A stretch of 64,000 nt of DNA, taken from Sipunculus nudus. Taxonomy: Eukaryota; Annelida; Sipuncula; Golfingiida; Sipunculidae. Below, in pieces: positions 3,920-45,700 of this stretch (the first letter of the stretch is position 1; every line of letters begins with the position of its first letter). The stretch spans positions 30,546,901 to 30,610,900 of the forward strand of contig CM049317.1 in assembly GCA_026874595.1 (NCBI GenBank), read 5' to 3'. A program made the position numbers and the translations under genes. The notes beneath the pieces were generated by a model that had not been told where the DNA came from, made no database searches, and was given only the letters and a program-made list of their open reading frames with translations.

Positions 3920-4780
3920 TTACTCAGAACCTTTCTTACCAGACTCTAGGTGCTCATTTTCTCGCCGTAACCTCTGATTTTCGGCACGTAAGCGTTCGAT
4001 TTCAGCTTGCAGGGATCTAGCGGTTCCCCTGCTCTGACACCCCTCCAATGATAATGCATCTATCCCACTACCATTCACACGTGAGCCCTGTTGAGCTGAC
4101 AAGTTTTGGACCTTTTTCTCTAGCGATTCCACTTTACTTTCTAGCATGATATGCTCGCGGACCAGTTCGTCTTTTGTCATAGTTTGCAATCTTTCAGCAT
4201 GGAAGTTTTCATAAGTTTCAGCGAACTCTTTCTCCAGGAATATTTCTTCATCGTTTGGAGAGTCATAATAATCATCGGACGAGTCCAAACTGCCCGAACC
4301 GTCCCCGCCGCGGGTAGAGCGGGATTTGTGTCGGACATCAAACGCTGGGCTAGCTTGTTCCCGATCATCCATCAAGAACTGTGTCGTGTTATAAGGTGCC
4401 ACTGGATGCCCGGACGCAAAACGTTCTTCCCTTTTCAGACATGCTCTCTTTGTTTCTTTCTCATCAAGTTCTTTTCTCTCTTCCCAAGTCAACTTGTTGT
4501 AAGGCTTCCACTTTCGCCGATGGTGTTTCCCACCTTTGTTTTTACCTCGTCGGTGTCTTTTCCTTTTACAGCCGTTGACAGCATCCCCAGACTGATCAGC
4601 TTTATCAGCTGGAGACCGATTTCCTGACTGCCCGTGGGTCGGGCTCAGGGAACTCTGTGTTGAGTCGATTTCCAGTGTGTCCCTTCGATTCACATCCTCA
4701 CTTTGACAGCCCTCGCCTGACACCTGTGTTGGAGAATCGGCTTTCCTCTCTGCAACTGTGCCACTCCCACATTCAGCCAT
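3920..4780 (-). CDS. HEXIM1: HEXIM: P-TEFb / 7SK snRNP inhibitor (intronless)
   Basis: A 286-residue protein in one exon. HEXIM proteins bind 7SK RNA and, as dimers, hold P-TEFb (CDK9-cyclin T) inactive in the nucleus, limiting transcription elongation. Domains seen in order: a Ser/Gly-rich N-terminus; a basic RNA-binding stretch (about residues 72-93, rich in Lys/Arg/His) running into WKPYNKLTWEE; the hallmark PYNTTQFLMDD (129-139) whose PYNT motif is needed to inhibit CDK9; an acidic patch (about 165-185); and two coiled-coil segments (about 197-227 and 255-280) matching the cyclin T-binding and dimerisation region. The open frame extends 13 codons upstream but only to a TTG, so ATG at 4780 is the start; a stop lies just above. 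Human HEXIM1 is also intronless but longer (359 residues). One gene copy is seen, so HEXIM1 versus HEXIM2 cannot be separated. DHX29 lies divergently, 3.7 kb away. Confidence 0.95.
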   Translation of the reverse strand: MAECGSGTVAERKADSPTQVSGEGCQSEDVNRRDTLEIDSTQSSLSPTHGQSGNRSPADKADQSGDAVNGCKRKRHRRGKNKGGKHHRRKWKPYNKLTWEERKELDEKETKRACLKREERFASGHPVAPYNTTQFLMDDREQASPAFDVRHKSRSTRGGDGSGSLDSSDDYYDSPNDEEIFLEKEFAETYENFHAERLQTMTKDELVREHIMLESKVESLEKKVQNLSAQQGSRVNGSGIDALSLEGCQSRGTARSLQAEIERLRAENQRLRRENEHLESGKKGSE

Positions 4781-4907
4781 GGATGTCACCTTTTTACCCA
4801 AATATTGATCAAAACACAATACAGTCTGTTAAAATATTCTCGGCAACTTCCCGACGTTTGCATCTGGACGCTTCTTGCTGTACTAACTCGGTACGGCCTT
4901 GCCTCAA

Positions 4908-15700: not shown

Positions 15701-18700
15701 ATCACTCACCCCTCAATTTATTTTTGTTCACCAGTGTCACAGAAAATCATCTCTTGTCCCATATTGGTAGAGTCTTTGAAACCCAGCCCCAACTTTAAGT
15801 TAATTATACAAAATGGTTTGTTATGCATTGCTGTGTTTAAAAACCAAGAGCTTGTGTAGATAAACAAGCTGGTACATCTACAGTCTGAAATCACATAAAT
15901 TCTACAGAAAATGTAGGTGAATAGCTTAGTTAATAGATAATTCTTGGCATTATTCAGGTACAGATTCCCTCTCAATTGGAGCAGCGGCTGGTTGAGCTGA
16001 TACAGGATGAGAAGGATCATCAAGCATCACAGACAAACATCTCCCTGAGACTGTCCACCAAGAAACTAACAGTATGTTACAGTATAAACATCTCCCTGAG
16101 ACTGTCCACCAAGAAACTGAGAGTATGTTACAGTATAAACATCTCCCTGAGACTGTCCACCAAGAAACTGACAGTATGTTTCAGTACAAATATCTCCCCG
16201 AGACTGTCCACCAAGAAACTGACAGTATGTTTCAGTACAAATATCTCCCTGAGACTGTTCACCAAGAAACTCACAGTATGTTACAGGACAAACATCTCCC
16301 TGAGACTGTCCACCAAGACACATTACGTACAGTACATATGTTGGGGACTGAGAGCCCTCAGATTTTTTTCTTTTGCTATATATGAATTTATACCTGTGGG
16401 AGTACAGGCAGTGAGGTTAGACTCAAGTATGGACTCAAATTGATTCCAAACTCAGGTTCACTTTTCCAAGGATCCAGACTTGGACCTGAAGGTCTTGGAC
16501 TCATACTTGTACTCAGACTCTGAGGTAAGGAGCCCAGCATAGCCATAATGGAAAAACTCTGTCACTGAAGTATTGATATTCCCTTTTGATAACAAAGGAT
16601 ACACTGACATGAATTGAACTATTGACAGAATATTAAATATAAAAATACAATAAAAATTTAGTTCTATATATATAAAATTTAAAAATTAGGTTACACTCAT
16701 AATTTGTCGGATATTTTTCTCATGCTGATAAAACTTATCATCCTTCAGATGGAGTTCTAAATATCTAAAATATATGGATAAACTTATCAAATTAGGAATA
16801 CTTTGTCTTTATAACAAAATTTTGTCTTAGATTTTGACTTGGTTTCATAAGACTCTTGACTCAACTGTAGAGCTGGAAAAAAGAACAAAGAAAGTTAACC
16901 AGTGGTATCTTTTTTTGTGTTTCAGGACCTTTACCAATCATTAGCAAGGGCTGGATTCCAACATACCCAGATCACACAAGCAATGTCCAACACTGTGAAA
17001 TATGGTGGGGGAATATTGGATGCTCTTGATTGGCTGTGCCTGAACACACCTAATGGTAAGTTTGTTTAAAACAGGGTATATATGATTTAGAAATGCCCCA
17101 GAACAGGATTAGTAAGACCAGTGATTCTCTCTGTAGATCATGTCAAGTTGATCTGTATCCATCTCACATAATATACAAGGAAATGCAGCACACTTGAAGC
17201 ATGCACATTAAATTTTCATGTTACAGTCTGACCCATTTGGTGTATTCCTCCTTTTTATAGATCAATTGTGTTTGTTTTGAATACAGATCTTTTTACAAAT
17301 AACAGGGGCCTGGACAGTCAAGGGGCAAAACACTTGGCTCTCTCCATTGGCAACCCATGTTCAGTCCCTGGCATGGGAGAGTGAGTTGTAGTTGCCCGTC
17401 CCAGGCCGGTGGTTTTCTCCGGGTTCTCTGGTTTCCTCCACCCCTACAGACTACTGAATGCCATCATCTGAGCCATGGAGAGTGCCTTGATAAGTTAATA
17501 ACTATTAGTACAATCCATGTAAAATAAATAAGTTTATATTATGTAGCTCTCATAGACTGACTGGAACACATCTATCATCCCAGACAGTTCAGACTTAGAA
17601 TTCTTCTTTTTAGATCTACGTAAGGTAAGAACTGTTTTGTGATTTTTAGCTCAGCTGACTATAAGTCATCTGAGCTATAGTCGTGGTCCATTGTCTGTCG
17701 CCCGTCCGTCTGTCCGTCCGTCCGTCTGTCTGGATGTCCGTCCGTAAGACTGGCACGTTTCGACACCATTGGACCTATGAATCTGAAATTCAGCATACAG
17801 TAAGATGTCCCCAAAATCTTCTACCATGCCGAAAATTTGGTCAATAGGACTTTGTTCCTTCGAGATATTAAGGAAAAACCTTGATTTTTTATTAGAAATC
17901 TATTTTTACACTTCAGGACTGCCTAATATCAAAACCACTCATCTGGTTTTCTTCATATTTACCATAAATATTTCTCTATATAGTTCCTATGTACATGCCA
18001 GAAATTAAGTCAGTATTATTTAATTTAAAGAAGTTATGGGCCCAAACATAATGGACTTTGTAAAAAAATCAGGAAAGATATTTGGTCACTTAAGACCAAA
18101 AGTGTTAAAGGTAGGTACTTTTTTTTAGTAATACAACTTTAATTAATCAAAATTTAATTGTATACCAAAAATTAGATCAAAATCTGTTAAATTTTTTTAA
18201 ATATTGGCAAAAATATAAAATTGGTACCTTAAATTTTGCCCAACTTTGGCCACGGCACGTTTTTTTCCTGTAAGTACTGTGGATTTAATTTTCACAGCAT
18301 GTACACATAAGGATTAAATCTGTTAAAATCTGAAATTTGAAAATAAAAGCTGCAAAATTAGGCTAGTTATTGAATTTTTTTGGAGGCTCTTGTTGTATTC
18401 CCTTACATTGTCAAGCAGTCCACTTTAATGACTGTAGGTCATTCAGTGCACATCTCTATGCTCCCCAGGCTGTTGGCATAATGTTAGATGTCCCCAAAAT
18501 CACCTGTTTCTTTCGAGATATTAAGGAAAAACCTCCGTTTTCTATAAAAAAAGCCATTGTTACACTTCAAGGCTGCCTTATATCAAAACCACTGATCTGT
18601 TTTTGATCATATTTAGTATTCACATTCTTTCATACATTTTCTATGAACTTACCAAAAATTAGGTCAATATTTGGTATTATTTTGAAGTTATGGGCCAAAA

Positions 18701-21700
18701 TATAATGCATTTTAAAAAAATCAGGAAATATATTTACTCACCTAACATGAGAATTGCTGAACCTAGAGACTTTTTTTCAGGAATATAACTTTATTTAATC
18801 AAGATTCAATTGTTTACCCAAAATTAGATCTGAATTTTGCAAATTTTTCAAGTTATTAGCATAAATAAAAAATCAATACCTTAAATTTTGTCCAACTTTG
18901 GCAATGGCACGTTTTTTCCCTGTAAGCACTGTTGATTTAATTTTCACAGCATATATTAATAAGTATTTAATCTTTTAAAATCTGAAATTTCAAAGAAATT
19001 GATTGGAAAGAATAGCTTTTATTCACGTTTTCATACACCGTGTCAAGTGTTGTTTACATCTAGCCCACCTAGTAGTACAGCCTTCACTTGCATTATGTAA
19101 CCCACCCCAGGCAGCTTGCCTTGGCTCAGCTTGGCCACTACCAGCAGGCTTCCCCTCTGCCCTGCACTCCCCCCCCCCCAGCTGGTGCATAAACTAGATG
19201 AATGTTATTATTTTCTGTATTTGATTCATTCTTATTCTAGGCTATCTATGCTACATTTTAGATTTTGTATTGTACCACCAGGGTTACAATGATTAAAGTG
19301 TACATTTAATTGTGTCCACAAAATGGTGTATTGCTATGAAAGTGTGGATGTTCATCAGATAAGTAATTCCTTACTTTAGAAGAGTGAAAACTTCACCAGG
19401 TGTGAAATTGACTATTAATTCCAGTAATTAATTAAAACTGGGATAGTAATTAGCACAATGATATTGTTTGTCCTTCATTCAACCAACAGTGTGTATACTT
19501 TATTTGAAAAGATGTTTTATTTTATCAAATTTACTGAATCTTTTATTTTATTTTGGTGAATAAAATTAAGCATGTACTGAAAACTCCAATGTGCAAAACT
19601 TTTTTAGTGATTCAAGGAATATTCTTGTAGATTCAATGTTGTGGCATTATTTTCTTTTAAATTCAGTTTAAATATTTATGATTTGAAAATAATAAAATAT
19701 ATGTGTATGCATAATATGACCCTAAATCGGCTACACTCTGGATATATAATGATTGCAACTTTTGCAACAATTCTAATATTTAAACTTATAGTTTCAGTTT
19801 TTTACTCTGTATATATAATTATTGCAACTTTTGCAACAATTCTAATATTTTTACTTATATTTTCAGTTTTTTTTATTAAAAATCAATAATACCTGTAAAT
19901 TAAAAAATGATTCAGATAAAAACTTCTTAATGGAAAAAGTGGATATGCTAAAAAATAGGCTTATATATAAACTTAAATGCATTATTCCCTTGAAAGTGAA
20001 ATAAAGGTATTAGGTCATTCTTTCCACTTGCCTGTCCATCTGTAAATTTTCATATGCATCACAGTATCTCAAAATTTTACTGTTTTTCTTCATGACAGTC
20101 TTGTCAGAGTATTAGTTTGCAATCATATATTTAGAACTTTACTATAACCAAGTAGGAGGGCCCCTTTCCTCTTAGCTTTTCATATTCTTATATAAATGAA
20201 AAACATTACAATTGAATATTTCTACATCCACCTTCGTGCTGCCCTCACTTTTCCCTTCTCCGAACCCCATCCCAAAGTCAGCCTCAGTAAGCAAGAACAA
20301 GATGAATCAGATATATTCATACTTTAATATTTTGTATAACTATTCGTCAGTAGGTACATATGTACATGCCAGATATTATGTCAATATTGTGTAATATGTA
20401 GACATAGTGGGCATCACAAAAATTTACCTTGTCAAGACTAAAGAGATATTGTGTCATACAGTCACAAATTCATAAATCACTTCATCAGCATAGTTAATCA
20501 TAACATCATATCTGTCAAATTGAAAGCTTGCAGACTACCATACACTTTAGATCCTTCAACAAATAACCTTATCATCATTCTACTACTGCTTATTACTGCT
20601 GTCATTGCATTCATATTTGCTCAAATATATCACAATTTTCAACCCCTCCTAAATAAATAAAAAATAAACCACTATATTTTACTCTATTAATCCATCAGTC
20701 AGGTAATTTCATTAATCTTTTACTCACATATTACATTACATTCCTTTACAATAGCCAAACATGTCCATGGTATTCATAAGCTTTATCGACTCGATATAAT
20801 ATCACAGTGGAGAAACATTTATAGACCAATCACAATCAGCTGAGCGCCGTGACCCAAGGGTCCCTTGTTTGTATCCAAAAGACCTTTCAAAAGTGGCACC
20901 TGGATTTCATTTTCTTGTTTGCTTTAAAAAAAATATATATATTTATTTTAAAAAAATTATAATTCAAGAACTTGATTTTGTAAAACTGAAAATTGTCAAA
21001 AATGTGTATGTTATTTATTTCCTTAATGTAACACCAACAGGCCATGTTGTTTTGCTGATGGTGAAAGCTAAAGATGCATATTTTGTGTCTTTGTTTGTGG
21101 ACATCCAGGCAGGGCTAGTCTTTCTGTAGGCCTGTGGTAGGGGTGTTCAGGTTTTGCTGTGGGTTCGGGGTGGCTTGCTGCTGCTGTCTCTGGATCCTGA
21201 CAACTTCTTTCTTTGCCCCTGGGTCTGGCAGCCATGTCTGCTGGGGTGCTGAAATGGGCTGCCTAGTACTAGAGTGGGGCTAATTCTTGGTCATAGAATA
21301 CATAAGCTTAGTTTTCAAAATTCTATATGTTGCGTTGAGGGAGCTCGGAAGGTGATGGACGTTTTAGCCTCCAATGTCACAGCTGCAAGTTAAATGAACA
21401 TCTTCAGTTAGGGCATGGCAAAGTAGCAGCATCAGTGTCCACATGAGAGGAACAACCTAATTATGATCTGCTTGTCATTGCCAGCAAGCTGCTATACTGT
21501 TGTGGAACATGATTTCATCTGGCCACCTTAGATTGCTGAGACAACAGGTCTGTGGGGCTATTCAGTTCTCTGTCACAGTCTGTGTCCTTTCCATGTGTTG
21601 TTACCATTGCATGTAATCAGTCAAATTGGAACAGGGTTCATCTTGTTCAAGCAGTCTGTGTCATGAGTATGGCTTATTTTGTAGGAACCAATGTGTACGG

Positions 21701-27700: not shown

Positions 27701-30700
27701 TGTTTGCTGTGGGCTAAAATCATTCCTATACATGTAGTGGTTTGACTTTTTTGCCTAAAATTTTGCATATGTATACATATTGGACAGCTTCCTGGATTTG
27801 TGGTTGGTGGCGCAACATACATACACATTTCGGCTACAGACATCCATGCTAATATGCAACACACCTCACTCTATTTCCCCTTGCCACTCAATCCATGCCT
27901 CACTTCACCTGTTCCACTATGATTTTGGTGGATACACGTAGTCGCTTGTTGACTACCCCTATTCTAGTTTGTTTCTGGTTTGTACATATATTGTCACAGT
28001 TTTCTCAAACTGATAAGCATAACAATGAAAAGGAAAAAAATAAACATGCATGAAACATAAGGTAGCATATTTGCATATTGGTTGAAGCAGATGACATGTA
28101 AAACATGGAAGGTTAGAAAGTTTCTGCAGGAAAAATGGTTAAATTATTCCAAAAGGTCATCAGTTTTCTTAGAACATAAAAAACAAATATTCTTGACTAG
28201 GTGTTAGAACCTTGAAAGCTTGTAAATACCCTTTTTTACTGTTAACTTTTATATGAATAAAATAAGGAGCAACTTCGTTATATTTGAATTCAGAGATATG
28301 TCAAGTTCATTTCTTGTTTCAGTCATGAATGAATTGGAGAAACAACCAGGTTTCAACCCACAAATCAAGCTCACAGATATAGAACAAGAAAAGTTTCAGG
28401 AGAAGCCACAAGGTGGTGCTAATGGAAGGAAGGACGTAAAAGATGATGATGATGATGATCCAGGGATAGGAGAGGGGTTTGCAATGTTTGAGGAGCAGGC
28501 TGCAGCGGAACCACCAAAACCCAAAGGTTTGTGAAGGTCATGTTGACCTGTTGATTGTTCTAATAAAATGCCAGTGAAAAGCCTAAATTTTGGTCCAATT
28601 TCATAAATTCACACCTGTATTCTGATAGATAACTTTCTTTCCAGTATCTGAGAATTGATATGATATCCCATGTAAACAAATGCAGAAATAAACTGGAAGG
28701 AGGAGGGGTATTTGGATTTTCATATATCCACAGTTATAGCCTGAGAAGCATGGAGGTATCAGACCTGCAAACAGTTAGTTTTATTACGTAAACATAATTG
28801 TGAGCTGTTTCTGTATTAATGAGAATTTTCTCTGTTAAACTTTATATCCCAGAGTAAACCAACCAAAAATTTTTCCCTTATTGGGCCTATTATCGCCCAT
28901 CCCGCCTCGTTCCCGTGTATCTAGGTCACACTTCCGCTTCCTGTTATCACATTTTTCTTCTGGCGTCAGCCATGATGGACGTGTGATCCCGCGCTGCAAG
29001 ATTCGTCCACTGTTTGGTTTGTACATTCGAATTTGCCAACTGACTGTAAGTTGTGTTTCTTTTCCCTTGCCTGCCATGGAGAACCCCACTTACTGTGTCT
29101 CTTGTGGTTCAGTAATCCTGGTTTGGGATTCCCACCCCACTTGTTTCCATTGCCGCACAAACAATAACTCCTGCCGGGGTCCAGTAGATCCCTCCACGCT
29201 TCCTTTGTCTGGCCCCGTGGTTGTCTCCGGGGGGGAGGGGGGGGAGCCTACCCTGGGTGACCGCAACACGGCCGTGTTGCGTTCCCTGTCCGTAACCGCC
29301 GGTCCTGTTTCCTCACCAGTTGTTTTGACAGTAAAGTCGTTACTTTCTCATACCCGCAAACGGAAGTCTTCCCCAGTTCCCGCGGCTTCCCATTCTGACG
29401 GCCTGTCCGCTTATTCCATATTACATAAATTATCTCGATTTTGCTCATCACTTATGTCGGATCTAGACGATCCGTCTAGACCCAAATCCATCCGCCCGGC
29501 GCCCTCACTGGTTCCCCCGGTGCTTTCTCCCCGGCTGTTATCTTCGCCCCCGGCTCCTCGCCGGCTTCCTTCTTTATCCACGGGGCCGGCTGGTGCCGTC
29601 CCGCTGGTTCGCCCGGTCCTTCCTGGTGTGCAGGTAAGTGCGTCAGTCCCTCCTGCATCCGTTTCATTGCAGCCGGCCTTGCCTCCGGTTACTCCGTCTG
29701 CTCTGGTGGTCCGTTCGGCCGTTCCTGACCGGCCGGCTGGCTCTTTCTTTCAGTTACCGTCTGCTGTGCTGCCTGCGGCTCCGGTTCCTGTGCCTTCCTG
29801 GATGGTCCCTGCTGCTGACCGGTCCTCCGCTTCCTTTTTCCAGCCTCAGGTCGTTCCGGCTCAGCGGGTCTCTCTGGATCCCCCTTCCCGGGGTTCTCTA
29901 GCGTCCCCGTCTTCTCATTCTGCGGATCCCGCCCTGGCACAAGATCAGTGGTCGGAGATGGCGCTGCAATGCCAAGCTTGGCGTACGCGCAAATCTGCGC
30001 TTCTGGACCTCGTGGCTACCTCCACGCAGTAGGCCCACCCTAATGGTCCGAAGTTCCGTAGGTTACAACCTCCGTCTTCCTCGGCGTCGGCAGCCGGTTC
30101 TTATTTGAATCCTGCCACCCTTCAATCGCCCTCCTCCGCGCCCGCCGTGTGTATGGAGTTTACAGATCACACGGTGGATCTCTTACGTGAGCACCACGCT
30201 GTGGTCTCGGGGTCTCGCTCTACTAATACTGGGGCCCCGCTTCCACCCGGTTCTGATAAACCATGGTCCCCCGGTGCCTGGACTTCCCGTGGGTACCGGG
30301 CTACCTGCTTTGATCGCCTGGTACCCTTTCCTGATCACCCGGATATTCTGTATGCTCTGATACGGCTCGAGTCTGGCCTTGAACAGCCGTTTGGGACGGA
30401 AAATCCTTTTTTCCTTCGTCTATCCAGTTTTCCGATCGTCACCTGTCGGAACTGGAGCGGCTCGGCCGGCAGGCGGCCGGTATGGTTAACTACTTGCAGG
30501 CTGTTACTAGCCTGCTCACCGTCTCTCCGGACTCGCCCACGCTTAATGACATCTGGCAGGCTTCTGCCCATACTTGCGCTGAGTTGCAACAGGTTGTATT
30601 GCGCCTGGTTGAAAATTGTATCTTATTACGCAGCACGGCTTGCCTTCAGTCCTTAAAGCACTTAAAGCCGGAACTTACTCAGGCGGAGTTGACAGAGCTT

Positions 30701-33700
30701 TATTCTCAACCTTTTACCGGCTCCCTTCTGTTTGGCAGCCACTTACCGCCTCTTTTTGACCGCGCCTTGGATCGCTCGGATCGTAATGCCCGCCTCCCAA
30801 GGCCTCTCTTGCGCCTCAGCCTTCCTTCCGCGTCCCGCGCCCTCAGCCTTCGGTTGCGGCTCCCGCTCCGCCGCGTCGCGCTCCTGCTCCGTCTTCTCGT
30901 CCTTCAGGCCGTTTCAGCCGTTCACAACCTTTTCGTGGTCGTTCCTCCAAACGCGGTTTGACCAAGAAATGACTCATTCGTTCCGGTCGGCGCTCATCTC
31001 AGTGCCCATTTTCCCGCGTGGAGGGTATCACCTCACATCGGTTAGTTCTCAGCACCATAAAGTTTGGGTTACGTTTTTGCACGCACCTCCTGTCACCCTG
31101 CACCCGTTCTACACTCCGCCTCCATCTGATCCCGCCAAGCGCCTCGCTTTGGAAGAGGCAATTCAATCTATGATAGACAAAAGGGCGATTTTCGAGGTTT
31201 CCCCGTCCACAGTGGGGTTTAACTCTCACCTTTTTCTTGTTCCCAAGCCGCACGGGCGCTGGCGCCCCATCATAGACCTGAAGCGCCTCAATTCGTTCAT
31301 CCGACCGCCCCGTTTCGGATGTTCAATATCCATGCTGTTCTCCGCATTGTTCGGTGGATGGATTGGGCGTTCAAAATCCATCTTACGGATGCCTATTTTC
31401 ACGTTCCAATCCATCCGTCGTCTCAACTGTTTCTTCACTTCGCGTATCAGAACCACGTTTTTCAATTCCGGGCCCTCCTGTTCGGGATCAATGTGGCCCC
31501 CTGGATTTTTACCATGCTTGTTCATACGGTCACGCGATATCTCCGTTCCCAGGGCATTTCTGTGCTCCCTTGTCTGGACCATTGACTTGTCCATGCGGCC
31601 GATCGCTCCCTATTACTGTCTCATCGCTCCCGGGTTCTCACCTTACTTCAGAACCTTGGCTTTCTCGTCAATGTGGAGAAATCTCTTCTCACTCCCACCC
31701 AGTCCCTACAATTTCTGGGTGTCACGCTCGATTTTGCGTCCGGCACGGCATCGCTTCCGCGCGATTTTGCTCTCAAGCTCCGTCGTTAGATTGGTTCCTT
31801 TCTCACGCTGCGCCGTGTCGATTCTCGCATGGCGGCTTCTCTCCACGGAGCTATCAACTGGGCCGCGTCTTTTATCCCGTTCAGCCGAATGTACCTACGT
31901 CCGATTCAGTCTCTCCTGCGCCGTCACGGCCTTCTCCGTTTAACCTCGGTTCGTCCTACGGTCCTCCCATTTCGGCTCACCTGGAGGTCCCTTCGTCCCT
32001 GGCTGGACCTTCCATTTCTCCTGCGCGGCGTTCCTTTTTCCCAAGATGTCGATTGCACCATCTATGCCGATGCGTCTCTCCTCGGTTGGGGGGCCCATCT
32101 TGCCGATCTTCACGCTTCAGGGTTATGGTCCCCGTCGGAACGTCTGCTCCATAACAATATCCTCAAACTGCGTGCCGTTCATCGCGGGGTCTCCCGCTGG
32201 TCTCCCTGCTTGATTGGCCGTCACATTCTCGTCCGGACCGACAATACCACGGTAGTGGCGTATATTAACAGGCAGGGTGGTACTCGGTCTCCCTCTCTCA
32301 TGCAGGAGACCTACCTATTGTTTGATCTATGCATCTCTCTCCGGGCATCATCTCATCCGCTGTGTCCTTCTCCGCTTGTCCCGCGCGGACCAGACGGCTC
32401 CCCTTCTCATCCTACCGTTTCATCCTGCGGCTCCCTGGTTTCCTCTGTGGTGCTCGCTTCTCTCTCGACCAACGCTTCTTCTACCGCTTCTACTCGATCT
32501 CCCGTTGTTCCCCCGAGCGCGTCGAACATTTCGGTCGTGCCCACTATGCGCATGCGTGCTCTCCTCGGACACCTCAAGGATCAGGGCATTTCAAGTCCGA
32601 CTGCTCTCCTTGCCTCGGCTCCCCGTCGCCGTTCTTCGGACCGCATCTATGACTCCCGGTGGCGTCTCTTCACCCGAGGGCGTCTTCACTCGGAATCTCC
32701 CCCTTAGATCCGTCGCTGGCGGTGGTTTTGGACTTTTTTGTGTTCTTACTGCAGGATAAACATTTTTCCTATCCGTCTCTGCGTGGCTATCATGCCGCCC
32801 TGCTGTCTGTGCTCCGTCCGCTAGGTCACGATCGTGTCCTTCATCATCATGGGTGAGATCCTCCAATTTTCCAGGCCATCTTCCTCCTCTCCACCGACGA
32901 CGTCGTCTTCTGCAACATCCCAACACTGAGATTCTCCTCGTTCCATCGTTACAGGTACGTGCTCCCTCCCCAAGGTCTGTCTGTTCTATTCTCATTAATA
33001 CAGAAACAGCTCACAATTATGTTTACGTAATAAAACCCCCCCCCATTCCCTCCCTGTGAATGGTGGTTTTGTTAGTAAACTGTTGTGAGCTTTTCTGTAT
33101 TACAAACATCGCTCCCTCCCAGTCCACTTCCTTCCGCCTTCAAAAAATGTGATTACAGGAAGCAGAAGTGTGACCCAGATACACGGGAACAAGGCGGGAT
33201 GGGTGATAATAGGCCCAATAAGGGAAAAATTTTCAGTTGGCTTACTCTGGCGTATAAACTTTAACAGAGAAAATTCTCATTAATACAGAAAAGCTCACAA
33301 CAGTTTACTAACAAAACCACCATTCACAGGGAGGGAATGGGGGGGATTTAGTCTCATTTTATTACTTTCCCTGGCTCAGGTGATAACAATTCAGAATGAT
33401 ATAATAAAATTTTTAATAAGAGTAGAGCAAGGGTACATCAATGTCCAAAGCTTGCATAGAAAGTGTAGTTTAGTTATCTATTCTTGCCTTTGTTTTCATG
33501 TAGCAAGACTTCAAGCTGTGTAATTTGGGAAAAGAAATACCTGTATCTTTATCAACAAAAGTGTTGTATATCCATACTACCTGCCTTCCTATCCTCTTCA
33601 TGTCCTTGGTAGAATATGAGGCCATGCAGCCAACCCCTCCATCTCTCTCGATCTTAAGCAATCCCTTCTGCTCCTTCTAGGTTCTCCATCCCATCTCGTC

Positions 33701-36700
33701 TCTTTCTGCCTCTACTGTTCTACTCCAATTTATCTTTGGTCTACCCCTTCGCCTCTTCCCTCCTGGTGCCCAGGTTTAAGCTACTTTAGTGTCACTGTTG
33801 TCCTCTTTTCTAACAACGTGCCCTAGACATCTCATATGTCTAACTTTGATATAATCTGTTACTGAGTTTTTTTTTGTGTTATTGTGAACTTCCTCTTTTG
33901 TAATTTTCATTGGCCAGTACACCTTAAGTATTCGTCTTAAACATTTCCGTTGAAAAGCATCCACTCTTTTCATGTCTGCCTCTTTCATTCAGCATGTCTC
34001 TGAATTGTATAACAATATTGATAGTACATTACCTTTGAATATTCTTAACTTCGGGTTCATCTTGTATATCCATGTATGTAATGAAATCACAAAATTTAAA
34101 ACATCTCCTCATGCTTTAGTGTTCCTGGCATCACACTGTAGTGTTTGTGGTCAGATTAGGTTAGTGCACAGAGAAATAGGATACAAACACTAATGCTTTT
34201 ATTGTCAATTTATCATATAGTTGTGCGGCTCTCCAACACAAAGATTAATAATATGTCTCCAGCACCAACACAATCTCACTACATTCTCTTTCAAAAGATA
34301 TTTACTTTGTTTTTAGTTTTCTATGGTCAAGATGAAATATCTGATTCTAAATGCTGCAGTAAATCTTCTGTATATTTCTGTTTATTTAACTTCACAAATT
34401 TGATTTAAAACCATGTGCAATTTGTAAAGCACTATTAACAATTACCAAAACTCAAAATGATGTCAGACCAGCATATACTGGATGATGCTTACATGGTCTA
34501 TATTCTTACTTTACCACTGTGGCCTCCTGCCAGAGTGTGCATATTTGTATATACAGATAGGTGTAGAAGCCAATTTTATTGCAGATACACTCTGACTCAT
34601 AAACACAATAAACTCAATAGTTTTCTGTTAAATGATCAGAGAAGAAGAAGAAGAGATCAGAGCTTGACATCAGGGAGTTTGCGTACACAAGACAGCAGTG
34701 GACTGGAAAGTCTCCCAAACAGTTCCTGATTGACTGGGTGAGGAAACATTTACCCAAGAGCCCTCCACCATCCTATCATAAGAAACAGTGTAGCGGCAAC
34801 CTTTTCAAGACCACGTATGTATCAGACAAGTCCTTCATGCAGTTTATTTTATATAGAGGTAGCATAGTACTGTGTTTGATTTCTTGATTATGAGATTAAA
34901 ATTCAGGGGTCTCTGTTTTTCTTTGTTTTGTGAGTGTTCCTTTTTGGCAAACTCAGCTTAACTAAGTTGCCCCACACAGAGTATATATATTATGAATTAA
35001 TTATATTAGATAATATGTGCAGAAAATGGAACATTGAACGACTGGAAATTTATGTTAATTACTGATATCTGGCAGATAAATTTGAAGGATAGGATATCAT
35101 TAAAAAAATCTTTGATGTACATGTAACACTAAAGATTTATAATTAAAAGTCACTTTGTACATTAGGGTTTATAAAATTCTGATATAATCTGCACAGACCT
35201 ACAGCTAAATGTGTGTCATGACCCATATGTTTATAAACAGGTTTTCTGGTGTTATCATATTTTACTAGTAGAAACCAAATAGCAAGAATACCTATAGTGG
35301 AGATTCATTACATATGGAGACTTTTCAAACAGAAATTTACATGACCTATATTAGACCAACAAACATTAATATAAATACATGAACTTGGAAATCATAAGTT
35401 ATCATTTTTAAGTTTGATGTGTGAAGCTGGAGACAATAAACCTTGCTGTAGTATTCAAACAGCACTGTAGACAACACAGTCTACTGTTTGTTCTAGAGTG
35501 ACAGTTCAGAAGAACAAGGATGAGAAGCTGTCTGTGTGTCCGGAGATTCTCTGTGAGAACGCTAAGGAGTCTGAGCATCTGGGCTGTACACTGGCACTGT
35601 ATCACCTTTGTAAAGGACAGGTAAGTTACCTTTAAGTGATATACAGTAGAACCTCTGAATTACAGACACTGACAGGACTGGACATTTTTTCCACAATAGA
35701 AAGGTGCCTATAGTAGGAAGGTTAAGGATTTCGGGACTCTCCGTAAGTGGCTGTAAATAGAAGGTGCCCTTAGTACAGAGGTGCCCATAAGGTGAGTTTC
35801 CACTATATACATATGGTAGGAGTTGGTTTCAAAATCATATTCAGTGGTTAAAAGAGTAAAAAAACAACCAATGATTGATTATTAATTCATTATTTATGTA
35901 ACATCTGTATTACCATGAAATCTGCTGTATAGAATTATACCTAAAATATTGACTGAAATTCAGTCTAACTTGTATGCTGTAAGGTCAAGGTAATGGCCAG
36001 ATTGTTTACACGTATTTGTTGCACACAGTTCAGTTTTAAAGCTGTTTGTTGTTTTTTTGCCCCGTCTTTCATATATCTTTGACAAAATTTTAATATTGTA
36101 TCTAGATAAGTAATATGACACCTTTGGATATGCATACATTATAATATGTGATTGATTATGTGAAAACTCATTTTAAAATTTGATTTTAATGGATTATGAA
36201 AGAAAAGGGCCAACCATCAATATAATTGATTAATTGACACTCTAATGGTTACTACATTCTATATATATAGATTAGATGTGATCTAAGATTTAGTCTTTTT
36301 AAATGGTTCACATGATTTTCCCCCCTAAGTTTTGCATCGTAAAAACTTCTTTAAGAATATGGTATATTGTTTGGTAATCTATCACTCATCATGTGGGTTT
36401 ATTCATTTTCAGCGAGTGTACCAGTTGCTTCCACCTCCATACAGGGATGTGTGGATAGAGTGGCAGGACAAGGAAGATACAGCAAAACAGGAGAAAAAGG
36501 ATGAACAAAACAAGGTAGGTGGCACAAACTTCACAGGCATCATTTACTGTGGTTGGCTTCATATTCACAAGGCTAATTATTAGGGTCCTGTTTGACAAGT
36601 GGTGCCGTATAATGATCACTGTGTCAGTCCGTCCTTCTGTCTGTCCGTTCATCTGTCCCTCCGTACTTCCGTCCTTCTGTCAGTGACGCGATAACTCAAC

Positions 36701-39700
36701 AACAACATACTGCAGCTTTCCCAAATTCACAGGGATGATTGGCACCTATGAGGGCTCCAGACCTATTGAATTACAGACATGTCAGAATTCCAATATGGCC
36801 ACCACAGCACAATCACTGATTTTCTTTCGCATGCAATAACACAACAACAACATAATGCAGCTTTCCCAAATTCACAGGGATGATTGGTACCTATGACAGC
36901 TCCAGACCTATTGAATTAAAGACTTGTCAGAATTCCAACATGGCCGCCACAGCCTGAACGCTGATTTTCTTTAGTGCATGATAACTCAACAACAACCTGC
37001 TACAGCTTTCCCAAATTCACAAGGATGATTTGAACCTATGAGAGCTCCAGACCTATCAAATATCAGACCTGGCTGAATTCCAATATGGTTGCCACAGCCC
37101 GATCTCTGATTTTCTTTCGCGCGTGATAACTCAACAACAACCTACTGAAGCTTTCCCAAATTCACAAGGATGATTGGTACCCATGAGGGCTCCAGACCTA
37201 TTGAATTACAGACCTGACGGAATTCTAATATGGCCGCCACAGCCCGATTGCTGATTTTCAGGGCTCCAGACCTATTGAATTACAGACCTGACGGAATTCT
37301 AATATGGCCGCCACAGCCCGATTGCTGATTTTCTTTCTCGCGCGATAACTTAACAACAACGTACTGCAGCTTTCTCAATTTCAAAGGGATCATTGGTGCA
37401 TGTGAGGGCTCCAGACCATTTGAATTACAAACCTGCTCAAAATCAAATATGGCTAACAGACTTTATTCGGTGATTTTCTATTGCACACATTATTTCAGAT
37501 ATATCTTCTTTAATATCATTTGATCGAATATGATTTTTTCCCTCATGCATATTGATTAAAACCTGTTTCTGTTCGTCATATTTTTCAAATTTAACTTTTC
37601 ACCCATATGTAAACTAGTCCAGCACTAGCAGAAATGCAGGGCCCTCTGAGGACCATTGTCCGACCACATCTAGTTTTTCATGATTTTCATTGTTTCTTTG
37701 TTTAGCAAGGGTTCATTTTTGTCACAGTAACTTACACACTGTATATCTATTATTCCATTATATCCATTATTTAATATGCTAACCAGATCTTAACAATGTG
37801 ACGAGGACCCACAAGAATTAGAGGAGATTTTTATCCCCTATAAGCAGGCAGATAATATGAAAGATCCCATATTATTTTTAATGTCAATCTTTAATGTAAA
37901 AGTAACATAAAATATATTTCTATCTTTAATAGTGTGGGGATGAGGATAACAGATATGACATGCCAGTGAGGCAATATTATAAATGGCCATTTACTTGTAT
38001 AAATTAGACCTCTTATATTATTCATGCAAGTTTAATTTTTGTGATAGTTCTCTTTTGCAAATATCAGAAATTTCAAACCCTTGCAAACAAAAAGCCATGC
38101 ACAGTTTCTTTAGTAGAACTCTCTATAATATTGATTTTTATGCATGTGGTGGACAAGTGATATAAAGATTCTGAAGGTTTATGTAAATTTTGGATTTTCA
38201 TTATTTATACAGGTTAAATTTCTTAGCAGTCATTTAGTCAGATCTCATAAGCTGTTGAGCTGATATAGATTATTTAGATATCAGACATTCCAATACTTAT
38301 AACGTGAACCAGTAAGTTTTACTGCTGTGTTGTGGATGCATCTAGGCAGCTCTTAGTGAGTTCTAAACCTCAAAGTAGTTCTTGAATACAGATATGTAGA
38401 CAACAGCTGGTTGCTGTCCTAGCAGTACCCTCATGTTGCATCCCCACACCTGTATCAAACCCTGACAGTCTTATTTCTCAAAACTGTTCATGGGATGGGT
38501 ATCTGAGACTGCGATGGCGACAGACGTCTAAAATAGTTGCTCTGCATAATAACGCTTCCTAGGCTTGGAAAATGTACCAAAATAAGTAAAATCAAAAGAG
38601 GATCGATAGAAAAAAGCAAAACTGTATCGCTCTGAAAATCCGAAGAAGATCTGACGCAGAAGGACCAGTCAACAAAAGAAAATCCTTTACCAAAGATCGC
38701 GCGACTGCTCGAGCTTGACAGGGCCTTAGCAACGGGCATATACTATTAATATAACGGAAACGTCCGCAAAAATCGTAAGTAAACAATTAAATATCACCAA
38801 ATAACCATGGATGTAAACAAAATCCAATTAATATTAGCCATCAGGGAAGCACTGCAAACCCAGGAGGTGCAAAATGCACTGGCATCAAACATCGTAATCC
38901 CTCTTCAGAGATCGATGGACAAAAAAATCGGCCAACTCGAAAAAGTAATAAAATCGCATGAAGAAAAAATCGCTAACCTGGAAAAAAAATATGAAACACT
39001 AGAAAAAGAATTCCTTATGAAAAAGCAAGACCAAGAAGAGGCAACCAAACAGAAAAATCTGATCATCGAAAACCTCAAAGAATCTGAAAACGAAAAACCA
39101 ATGGAAAGGGCCATGGAGGTCTTCAAAGCAATGGGGCTCAACACCAGTCAGTCCGAAATGAGCCAAGTATTTAGGCTAAAACCAAAACAAGGTACGGACG
39201 GAAAGCAACAAACGAGACCCCGGAAGCTCCTAGTTAAATTTCATAACACCACAACAAAGGACACAGTATACAAAGCGAGGGCGAAACTGCGGAACATCAG
39301 TCTGGACGGAGTAGCAATTTATATCAATGAGGACCTGACAGCGGACCAAGCGGAGCTATTGTTCGAAACAAGAAAACTTAAAAAGAAACCCAACAAATTA
39401 ATACACTCCGTGTGGACAAACAATGGGAAAATCTACGCAAAACAAGACCGTGAAGACAGCCCAACATTGATTAAAAATAAGGCAACATTAAAAAAATATG
39501 AGGAGTGGTTGAAATTAACAGATGATAGCAACGAGACCCCCCGTGAAGAAAGGAACAGCTGATCGCTCCTCCCATAATGCACCGGGCGTATCCAACGTAA
39601 ACAATGGACATTAAATCATCCAAGGATCATTATTTTAATATATATATAATAATCTACACACATAGTAATGCATACAAAGCCATTCAAAGCGTTATAAATG

Positions 39701-42700
39701 CGACCACATTACGTTGTCATCACATTCTAACTTAAATTTATAGATTTACCTGCGTGACCGGCTGACAACCCAGTATGGGTAACAGAGACACACACACAAC
39801 ACGCTCCCACACAACATATCCCAGCATGCACACCACACCAACCGGAAGAAAAGGTAACGTCAACATGGCTAAGCAAATTTCCATTTACCGCTTTTCAAAC
39901 TGTACTCACCTTTACCTAGTAATTATTAAAAAAGTAAAAAATAGTTGTGACATCGAATTAAACCCTGGCCCCAAAACAAAAACTCTAGATATATACCATA
40001 TTAATATACGGAGTATCTTAAACAAAATAGAAGACATAGAAATAGAAATACAAAACTTCGACATCGTCTGCTTTACAGAGACACACCTAGACAGCTCAAT
40101 TACAACCGAACAAATTTTAATACCCGGATATCAGCCACCAGAAAGGCTAGATAGATCGAGACATGGAGGTGGCATTGCAGTATACATTAAAAATACTATT
40201 GCATACAAAAGAAAACATGATATTGAATCCAAACATATAGAATCGATTTGTATTGAAATTATGAACCAACCATCCAAATTTATTTGCACAACAGTGTACA
40301 AACCACCAAACCAACCTGTAGAAAGCTGGGAAAACCTTAACGATTTCTTCTTTGATCTTAATTCCCTACCAAGTACTAGACATGTTAATGTGGGAGACTT
40401 AAATTGTGATATGATGATAAACTCACCCTCCCCAAAACTCAAAACCATAATAAAAGAACTCAATCTCTACCAACACATAAGTCAACCTACCAGAATAACC
40501 GATAATACTGCAACACTTCTCGATGTAGCTATTACTAACTTTAATGAATATATTATCAAATCAGGTACCTTTCCAAGGAAATACAGTGATCATAATAGTA
40601 TATATATAAAGATAAATTGGACCACAAACAGTCACACCTCACCTAATCCGATTAAAACATGGAACTACCAAAAAGGAAACTATGAGGAAATGAGAAATAA
40701 ATTAAGGAATATCAACTGGAATGATATATATAACTCAACATCTGATATAGAAATCATCTATGATAAAATACTTAAGGAAATTAGTATTATAAAAGAGCAA
40801 TGCATACCATTTCATAATATTACTCATAATTCATATGATAGAGAATGGTATACCCGTGATCTTAAACTTCTAAAAAGAAAATGCCTCCGGCTACGTACAA
40901 AAGCTATGAAATCAAACAAACCTAAAGACATGGAAAATTATAAAACATCTAGAAATAACTTTAATAAAGAAGCAAGAAAAGCCAAAGCAAACTACCCCTC
41001 CAAAATTGCTGCAGAACTTAAAAATAATCTACATAATGAAAAACTGTGGTGGAAAACAATAAATGTTTTAATGAAGGGCAATAATCAACAAAATATACCA
41101 CCACTTATCAACAATGATGGTACATTTGCAACTGAACCAAAGGAAAAGGCTAACTTACTAAATGAACAATTTATTAAACAAACAATAATTCAAGAACAAC
41201 ATTTTTCTACTCCATATTTAGCTAGTAAGAATTACAATAGACTCGATAACATTAAAATAGATATTCACGAACTGGAATCAATTATGAAGAATCTTAATTG
41301 TAACAAATCCCAAGGCCCTGATGATATCCCCCCCATCATCCTTCGTGAATGCTACAAAGAACTTGTATATCCACTCTGGAAACTTCTTACATTATCAATG
41401 GAAAAAGGACAACTTCCATCACTCTGGAAAAAAGCAAATGTAACGCCAATCTATAAAAATGGAGAAAAAAATAAGCCAATCAACTATCGCCCTATATCCT
41501 TAACATCTTGCATATGCAAACTATTTGAAAAAATTATCTTCGATCAAATGTATAAGTTCTTTAAAAATAACAATATAATCAGTCCACATCAGTCCGGCTT
41601 CATACCTGGAGACTCCACGGTCTACCAACTCTCTGACCTCTATAATTCAATTATCCAAGATATAGATAAAGGCAAAGAAGTACAGGCTATTTTCCTAGAC
41701 ATAAGCAAAGCCTTTGACAAGGTCTGGTCAGAAGGTCTCCTCGCCAAACTGTCATCTGCTGGAATAAAAGGTAAACTGCTTCGTTGGATTGCCCAGTACC
41801 TGAAAAATAGGAAACAACGAGTATTAATTGAAAACGATTACTCCCATTGGGAAACACTTCATGCTGGGGTACCCCAAGGTTCCATACTGGGACCCCTGTT
41901 ATTTCTAATATTCATTAACGACATTACAGACAACATAACAAGTAACATTAGACTATTTGCAGACGACACCATGTTGTATCTCACCGTTGAAAACTGATCT
42001 TTAGCAGCAAAAATACTAAATAGAGACTTGGAACAAATCTCAAAATGGTCAAAAAAATGGTTAGTCACCTTCAATGCAAAAAAAACCAGATCACTGTTAT
42101 TCTCAATGAAACCAAAAACAGACCATCCTGACCTATATTTCAATGGTATTAAAATAGATAAATCTAACACCCATAATCATTTAGGAATAACACTTAGAAA
42201 GGACTGCAAATGGAACGATCATATAGAAAATATAAAAGCAAAAGCAAACTCTAAAATCTTAATTTTGAGCAAATTAAAATATATGCTTGATAGGAAAACT
42301 CTAGAAAACATATATTATACATATATAAGGCCAATACTAGAATACAGTAATGTTATGTGGTGTAACTGCACACAAGAACAAAGCGAAACACTAGAAGCTG
42401 TGCAATTACAAGCTGCCAGAATAGTAACAGGCTGCGTCAGGGGAACTAGCCATGCAAAACTCTACAAAGAAACAGGCTGGCCCCTACTCAAAACGCGTAG
42501 AGAAAATTCAATGGTCATCCAGCTGCACAAAATGATAAAGCTAGAATCCCCCCAGTACCTGTACTTACTATTACGGCCACACAGAAACACCACCTTTAAT
42601 ACAAGATCTAGTGATCGACTCAATATACAAGACATTTTCTGTGGAACAGAGATCTACTATAATTCATTCTTACCAAAATCTATAAGATTATGGAATAAAT

Positions 42701-45700
42701 TAGATGAAAGACTTAAACACTGTCAAACCAGCAATCACTTAAATATAATATATCCAGGGAAATTGCAAGAAACAAACCACCAAAATACTTCAATTCAGGT
42801 ACAAGAAAGGCCCAGATAATTCATACCGGACTGCGAACACAAAGCAGTGACTTAAACTACGATCTATATAGAAGACACCTATCCAACGACCCAAAATGTC
42901 AATGTGGATACGAAACAGAAAATGCTGAACATTATCTGCTGCAATGCCAACTCCATGTCAATTCTAGAAATAAATATCTCCCCCAAGATATATCTGTAGA
43001 AGAACTCCTCTATGGTAGCGCATATGCAAACAACACCAGAAATGAAGAAATCTTTACATCTGTATGTTCATACATAGAAAACACAAACCGGTTCAAAACA
43101 TAAAAATCTCCCACAACACCTCCAAAACACAGACATACAACTATAACACTTCCACTTACCAAACATCCACTACCAAACACAACCCCTACCATAACACTGA
43201 ATACTGCCATCGTTTTATATTTTATATTTTATATTTTATACTAGAAATATTAGGGAGAGAGTCAAGATAAGCTTTAAGTAGCTTGCACTTAATCCCATTG
43301 ATGTCTGTACCATAAGATATGTGCATATTCAATAAAATATCTCAAACAAAAACTGTTCATGGGGGCTTACACACTTAAACAGGGATGACACATGTCACGA
43401 GTCAAAATTATTGATACACCATTGGTATCATTAATACATGGCAGCCTGAAAAAGTGTCTTGAAGTTTTATTATTAAAATTGTTTTAATAATGATGTTTGC
43501 TGATCATATTTCTCAACATGATCCAAGTGTGAACAGAAAGAACTATTTTACTTGGATCAGGTCAATACCTTGTTGTTAAACACATATGTCAAGTTCAGCG
43601 TAATAGTGTTGATCATGTATCTTCATTTGTGTTTTGAATGTTATTTAGTGGGTCATCCAGGGGGCACTAGTATCTGCTGATGATCTTTTGCAGAAGACAT
43701 GGAAAAAATACACCTGATTGGAACAAGGCCGACTACCTATGGTTGTTAAGACAGTTGTAACATTATTTTAGTCTAAATTAAAGAAAAGTGAAGGTTTTCA
43801 TACTTTCATGCATTGTAGCCTCGGGACCAGTATATTTCTAAACTTATGAAGAGCCTGAAACTAGAGGGCAGCACTGGTGTAGCTGAGGAGAAACAAGAAC
43901 AAGACGACGAGCCAGCTGGGGAATCATGGGAAGACTTGGCTGACGAGGATGAGGTGACTTAAATTATTTAAAATCTAAGAAATTTGGATATGAAAAATTT
44001 GTGTGAAAAATAGGTATATCAGAGGGGGCTGTATGTTTTCCTTTAGATAATTAGACACATCCAGTGGTTGATGCATTTTAGGGAGGGTTAACAGTATGTA
44101 GTCTGAAAGACCCAAAGCCACACTTTATTTAAATCTAAAACTCTTTATATTAACCCTGGTGGGCTGTTTGTATTTCTATTTGCCAATAATTACAAATGAT
44201 ATAAAATGTTAGATTTAACATTGGTAATGTAAATCATTCAGAACCTTTAATATGAACTGGTGTGCATGACCTGTTCAGACAAAGATTGGAACCATCATAT
44301 GTGCCTGCAAACATTTCATGTGACCATTTCAAGTGATGGATCCTTGACCTTTTTATATTTGGACACGTCCTGATAATTCACAGAGGTTTCTATATTTGTG
44401 AAAGAGTTCATGAATCAGTCCTTGATGATGCTTAAATCACTGTTGTCTGTCATTAGTTCAGATACACTTAGACAGATGGCGCTTATCACACTGCCTCATA
44501 TCAGACAGATTTCCTTTCTAGAATGAAAACATGTTGATCCTTTTTGGTGTCTTTTGACAGGCAGACTTATGTAAAACACACACATTACTATCCTAAGTAC
44601 TCCTTTTCAAAAAGAATGAAAAACTGTTTCAAAAACATGATTTGTTGAATTTTCATTTCAGGAAAAACTTGTTATTGAGAAAAAGAAAACCCAATATCCA
44701 ACAGAGAAGAGAGTTTCAGGAGATCAGCTCTGTAGTTTACTTTGTGAACACCAGAGGTCAGCACAGTTTAAGGAACTGCTGCAGGATAGACTTAATCTGC
44801 CTGTTTTCCAACACAAGGAAGATATTATCAGTTTTGTTAGAAGAGAGCAAGTCCTTGTTGTGGCTGGAGAAACTGGGAGTGGCAAGTCTACACAAGTTCC
44901 ACAATTTATTCTTGAGGTAAATTTTTTTTGCAGTTTCTCTTTCAATTTTATATTAAAGAAAAAAATTAACTTTGAATGTCTTATATTACATATATAACAA
45001 CCAGTTTCATATCTTTCAGAATATTTAAGAACCACAGTTGTAAATAGTAAATAGTGGGGGACAGAGTGTCTTTTTCAGAAATAAGATATTTATAGAGATG
45101 TAAATAGACTTGTGTGACATATCACACAAGTTAGTATTCCCCTGTGTAATTATAAAAATATTTAAAAAAATGATAAAACATGAGGTGAACATGTTATGAT
45201 TAGTTATTCAATCTAGCCACCATATCTGTTGCCATCATAACCTGATATTTAGTAGCAAATGTTTGGAAAATATTAGCTTTGCGGTTAATATTTTTTTGCC
45301 AAGAAATAGAAATGCATATTGTAAACCATATTCCCTTTATGGACTTGATAGATTTTCTATATTTCAAAATGTGGTGTATTTTGATTGATATTAACCACAA
45401 AGCCCAGGTACATAGTATACCGTATTTCATCTAATTGTTCGACCATAAAAAAATAAATAAATTTTACAGAGGTCGATTAAATGGAGGATAATTAGAAATT
45501 AGTACCTTGCAAATCACGTCATGGTCGAATAAATAGAATCGCTTTTATGTATGGGTTCGTCAGCCATCGCCTCAGTTCATTGTCGTGTCTCTCGTATTGT
45601 CCATTACAGCTATATCTTTATGTGTGCTATTAAATCCCGTCATGTGACAATATAATAGGTTACAAAATAAATGTTATCCATTATATAAGGGAGCTGTTTC

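Follow-up and report, generated by a model that had tools for sequence, protein, structure and literature searches.

When a tandem repeat copies the end of a coding exon together with its splice donor, which copy of the donor does the gene use, and is the arrangement a splicing device or an accident? This question is raised by a 51-base minisatellite in a stretch of 64,000 nucleotides from Sipunculus nudus (assembly GCA_026874595.1, contig CM049317.1, positions 30,546,901 to 30,610,900 of the forward strand), which we call the window and whose own numbering is used below. The repeat lies across the border between exon 3 and intron 3 of the gene DHX29 and carries five copies of one donor sequence. 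Our preferred answer, to which we assign a probability of roughly 0.62, is that it is an exon-edge minisatellite that is tolerated, with its main output from donor 1, at the exon side, and a minor leak to donors 2-5.

The exon 3 border and its repeat

The features on which the argument is based are as follows; a slash marks a splice border.

15958..16071, + strand: DHX29 exon 3 with donor 1, phase 0 at both ends, AG before 15958
16028..16318, + strand: 51-bp minisatellite, five full units and a truncated sixth
16072..16078, + strand: donor 1, GTATGTT (ACA/GTATGT), the best-scoring junction with the acceptor before 16926
16123..16129, + strand: donor 2, GTATGTT (AGA/GTATGT)
16174..16180, + strand: donor 3, GTATGTT
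16225..16231, + strand: donor 4, GTATGTT
16276..16282, + strand: donor 5, GTATGTT
16283..16333, + strand: register of unit 6, with the repeat pattern until about 16318 and degenerate thereafter, without GTATGTT
16926..17055, + strand: DHX29 exon 4 with the bulk of the UBA domain; acceptor TTTTTTTGTGTTTCAG/GAC, donor ATG/GTAAGT at 17056

Exon 3, ending at donor 1, was joined to the exon at 16926, and across the junction the resulting product shows a gap-free alignment with PDB chain 22tu_DH, which is named DHX29 (E 2.9e-14). The search output gives no species for this chain, the letters of which fit human DHX29. The same product contains the Pfam domain UBA_DHX29 (PF24899) at 75.6 bits, so that an earlier note on this DNA was right, in both frame and junction, to state that donor 1 gives the conserved protein. 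A human DHX29 query produced 22 rows against the window; 18 colinear rows on the + strand, from 15949 to 63655, were kept, including four with E above 0.01 that were retained for their order alone, and four rows (38879, 40315, 60272 and 19201) were dropped. The gene is thus identified as DHX29 by its UBA domain and its colinear helicase exons. In total, 17 junctions were modelled in the window, and some of the 16 others are less certain because they span poor human alignment. The 3' end of the gene extends beyond the window. Exon numbers follow the earlier note, exon 3 being the most upstream exon that was placed here. A search for a DHX29 retrocopy or paralogue that preserves the spliced form returned, at E up to 10 and among the best candidates scored, two matches, which are the two exons themselves.

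Tandem Repeats Finder describes the array as a period of 51 with 5.7 copies, 93% matches and 0% indels (16029-16318). The identity of the array with itself at a lag of 51 is 0.917, whereas in 1000 control sequences, generated by an order-1 Markov model built from the base steps of the array itself, the best identity at any lag of 20-99 is 0.403. The repeat begins inside exon 3, at 16028-16032, and crosses the border at 16071/16072, which is placed by homology. In one register, a unit consists of 40 bases of the end of exon 3 and GTATGTTACAG of intron 3; in the donor register, it consists of 44 exon and 7 intron bases. The period of 51 that the earlier note gave is therefore confirmed, while its count of six exact units is reduced to five full units and a sixth that decays, and its starting position, 15958, proves to be the start of exon 3 rather than that of the repeat.

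Each GTATGTT lies exactly 51 bases from the next, and the motif is kept in five of the six units; the + strand of the window contains 16 in total. The donors are identical, as had been noted, over these seven letters, but not in the preceding bases, which are AGA in unit 2 and ACA in the others. The units also differ from one another by substitutions. The array appears to be unique in the genome: when up to three mismatches are allowed, a 29-base core taken from the unit has six matches in 1.43 Gb, all six within the array, and a 501-base query of the genome matched one place, itself.

Two other explanations of the structure were rejected. Simple slippage on the flanking ACAG is insufficient alone to explain the unit, because the ACAG found on both sides is 50, not 51, bases apart. 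Internal introns or exons built from array units would have to use AGs with poor pyrimidine tracts: the AGs within and just behind the array are preceded by 31-62% pyrimidine, as against 85% before exon 4. Intron gain by tandem duplication would require the duplicated unit to supply both a working donor and a working acceptor; the pyrimidine values just given bear on this as well, and neighbouring borders in the array are only 11 bases apart.

Predicted products and the part of chance

The DHX29 reading frame is open through the array and past it, up to 16440, with the first stop at 16441. Donors 2-5 would therefore add 17, 34, 51 and 68 residues before the UBA domain, just as the earlier note had predicted with its one to four in-frame blocks of 17 residues. 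The last four residues of every added block are KKLT or KKLR. For the products of donors 1-5, taken in order, the Pfam UBA domain scores 75.6, 74.4, 75.0, 74.9 and 74.6 bits; Imm10 and Flg_hook rows for the same products are below the cut-offs and were disregarded. The domain is intact in all five, since the residues preceding the junction, where the domain model starts, are restored by each unit. This edge, which as judged from the predicted products would repair itself whichever donor is chosen, is an addition to what the earlier note observed.

How much of this needs selection as an explanation can be estimated. About one period in three is divisible by three. Were the four new junction codons random, the probability that none of them is a stop would be 0.76-0.83, and for 6 to 8 substitutions the probability that no stop arises is 0.85-0.89. 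One other forward frame is likewise free of stops through the array, so that the coding frame is not distinguished by being open. A unit that keeps the frame and stays open is thus likely to arise by chance. The four added blocks have seven variable columns, five of them amino-acid-changing and two silent; under random substitution, 65% of changes are expected to alter the amino acid, 33% to be silent and 2% to create a stop. The unit differences therefore look neutral, and no sign of selection is apparent in the sequence.

The genome also offers many opportunities for such an overlap. With arrays defined by a period of 25-150 and at least three copies, twenty 10-kb regions at chosen coordinates on 14 contigs (200 kb) contain 13 merged arrays, covering 6.8% of the bases, and the window contains two, covering 1.3%. 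The published S. nudus genome has 28,749 genes with 6.84 exons each, the latter being our reading of a table row without its column heads, in which 1,383.54 / 6.84 nearly equals the next figure, 202.36 (PMC10212961). From these values, the genome has about 168,000 donors, and if arrays were placed at random, even at the lower density of the window, some two thousand donors would be covered by one, which is a rough upper estimate. With this many chance overlaps expected, a surviving case is no surprise, though selection must remove many.

Two of the sampled regions were very dense in minisatellites, one (L027) with units of 35, 39, 43 and 51 bases and the other (L028) with a unit of 48 bases in 95.7 copies. 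In the window, a large composite tandem array (36691-37453; units of 145, 74 and 219 bases) occupies the DHX29 intron before the long interspersed nuclear element (LINE) described below, and a pair of 69-base repeats with 92% matches lies at 19735-19872.

Choice among the donors

According to our favoured explanation, a stretch of 40 bases from the end of exon 3 and 11 from the start of intron 3 would have been duplicated in tandem and then expanded, this order of events being the probable one, in a genome that has many minisatellites. The array would be tolerated because the original donor remains, and because 51 is a multiple of three and the blocks end in KKLT or KKLR, so that splicing at a later donor is predicted to leave both the frame and the UBA domain intact. 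Donor 1 would supply most of the output, in the form of the conserved protein, and a minor leak would add 17 to 68 residues before the domain. The gap-free DHX29 match over the donor-1 junction supports this explanation, as do the UBA domain kept in all five products, the neutral-like differences among the units, the frequency of minisatellites in the sampled regions and the human CBS and ABCA7 repeats described below. Judging from human precedent, it is most likely that donor 1 dominates with some leak.

The strength of the donors was scored with a weight matrix. The array donors score 3.82-3.94, a level that about 9-10% of the GT dinucleotides examined (3,399 in all) reach or exceed. The U1 pairing energy is -2.9 for four of the array donors and -4.6 for donor 2.

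Several of these and other observations weigh against a dominant donor 1. The array donors are the lowest-scoring of the 17 modelled junctions, the other 16 DHX29 donors in the window scoring 5.31-12.63, and because they are near-equal, donor 1 has no advantage in strength over its copies. Judged by U1 pairing energy, donor 2 is stronger than the other four; its value lies inside the range of 15 other modelled donors (-4.0 to -15.2), so that by this measure it is not among the weakest. Higher-scoring GTs are found behind the array at 16411 (4.72), 16416 (5.94) and 16427 (5.11). Only the first of these three is in phase with exon 4, with the frame open up to it, and splicing there would break the conserved KKLT/DLY junction. 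Duplicated identical donors often favour the intron-proximal copy, which would here point to donor 5. For c.844_845ins68 in human CBS, a strong preference in splicing for the more distal copy of the two is described (PMC2630376). For the repeat in human ABCA7, retention of one unit in the messenger RNA (mRNA) is given as 2 +/- 1% of transcripts, a figure that we assign to one-unit retention through the word 'respectively' in that paper (PMC5954066); mRNA decay reduces this figure, but would spare in-frame DHX29 products. Finally, the neutrality comparison given above has little power with seven variable sites, and weak selection is possible. Since there is no clear winner by strength among the donor copies, position or context must decide.

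An unlikely alternative, but the one that survives best, is that an intron-proximal donor (donor 5, possibly 16411) is the main one and that the normal DHX29 has as many as 68 additional residues, or even more, ahead of its UBA domain. The near-equal scores of the five donors, the higher score at 16411, the open blocks, the UBA domain that donors 1-5 all keep and the distal preference in CBS ins68 are consistent with such late splicing. However, blocks 3 and 4 carry the changes L to P and S to F, five of the seven differences change an amino acid, as in neutral DNA, and the low ABCA7 figure argues against frequent use of inner donors.

Slightly less probable than late splicing is an evolved or regulated ladder, in which several donors are used comparably, tuned by unit number, to give DHX29 length isoforms. 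This would be a natural in-frame ladder: one allele could yield 0, 17, 34, 51 or 68 extra residues with the UBA domain always intact, the number of rungs being set by a minisatellite able to vary in length from one individual to another. Weak donors are typical of alternative splicing, and the array donors are weak; the exact spacing of 51 without an indel, the open frame, the five unchanged GTATGTT motifs and the start of the UBA domain rebuilt by each choice also fit a ladder. Against it, each of these features is likely by chance at the probabilities given above. With such odds of an open frame, seven neutral-like differences and weak, near-identical donors, the earlier note's description of the array as a ready-made length-polymorphism and alternative-splicing device is unsupported.

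It is quite improbable that the array is a pure passenger, with donor 1 alone used and the remainder plain intron. The neutral-like differences among the units and the low ABCA7 retention would suit this reading, but donors 2-5 score like donor 1, so that strictly zero use is hard to expect.

An assembly artefact is very improbable, although unit counts of tandem arrays can go wrong: nothing was found that points to one, the units are distinguished by substitutions, and, if the assembly is the one described as made from HiFi reads at 72.63x with a read N50 of 14,008 bp (PMC10212961), the reads are far longer than the 300-base array. The unit number given here is that of one assembly, from which, according to the same description, haplotigs were purged.

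Some further contents of the window and of the assembly were recorded. Upstream of DHX29, on the - strand, an apparently intronless HEXIM open reading frame (ORF) of 302 amino acids (3920-4828) has a complete domain PF15313 at 143.8 bits. A LINE-like element on the same strand as DHX29 lies in one of its introns (38783-42819, + strand), with an ORF1-like frame that matches Baculo_FP_2nd, followed by an endonuclease and reverse transcriptase frame. Another DHX29 intron holds a probable decayed retroelement of several overlapping open pieces (28839-33059, + strand); one of the seven pieces scanned had matches, RNase H-like and below the cut-offs. COX1 has 11 matches in the genome, on contigs C60, C61, C62, C66, C72, C74, C75, C89, C123 and C5. 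The open frames have 577-578 amino acids in C60-C89, where C89 holds two of them, and 489 in C123. By eye, the genes of C123 resemble those of bacteria, and 20 kb of it contain no transfer RNA; these contigs, C60-C89 and C123, are likely from a cobiont or a contaminant. The short match in the chromosome-size C5 (67852325-67852477), with one TGA, may be a mitochondrial fragment.

Comparison with known exon-edge repeats

The DHX29 array is of the same kind as the repeats at exon edges of human CBS and ABCA7: its unit covers the authentic donor, and the donor is kept in several units. Alternative donor use in CBS was reportedly described by Lievers in 2001. The CBS repeat is a 31-bp variable number tandem repeat (VNTR), c.1444_1467+7(16_21), with 16-21 units that each comprise 24 bases of exon and 7 of intron; by its name, the unit combines an exon end and an intron start, so that the donor travels with the unit as in DHX29, and the part of the paper on this repeat describes units of constant length that differ by single substitutions (PMC2630376). 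In contrast to DHX29, 31 is not a multiple of three, so that later donors would shift the frame, and CBS has more units, with polymorphism shown. The ins68 allele of CBS resembles the DHX29 array in that an exon-intron junction is duplicated and the splice site doubled while normal mRNA is still possible, and differs in the more distal copy being favoured (PMC2630376).

In ABCA7, the intron 18 VNTR has a 25-bp unit whose first two bases are the GT of the exon 18 donor, and a donor further inside the repeat is used, keeping exactly one unit in the mRNA (PMC5954066). It differs from DHX29 in that 25 is not a multiple of three, the product being out of frame and subject to decay; in addition, the sections on the repeat describe no exon sequence in the unit and give about 12 to 427 units (PMC5954066). 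The miR-137 VNTR and C9orf72 were considered as comparisons and set aside for their different anatomy.

A single full-text literature search, which combined DHX29 with splice variants and with tandem repeat, found no described DHX29 case. The earlier note's remark that no described case was known is thus upheld for this gene but not for the kind, which is known from CBS and ABCA7. What is new is the gene, the animal and the in-frame unit. Because similar repeats are known in human genes, the array is most likely a tolerated accident and not a new splicing device.

If the later donors prove unused, the locus would show how robustly the exon-side donor wins. If they are used, it would show an exon end growing by repeats with the next domain unbroken, and would be a natural experiment in the choice among five almost identical donors at a fixed spacing of 51 bases. 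What sets the DHX29 unit apart from those of CBS and ABCA7 is that it preserves the frame and restores the beginning of the domain that follows. Any products of the later donors should therefore escape mRNA decay, and the experiment could be read without the frameshift and decay that blur human ABCA7.
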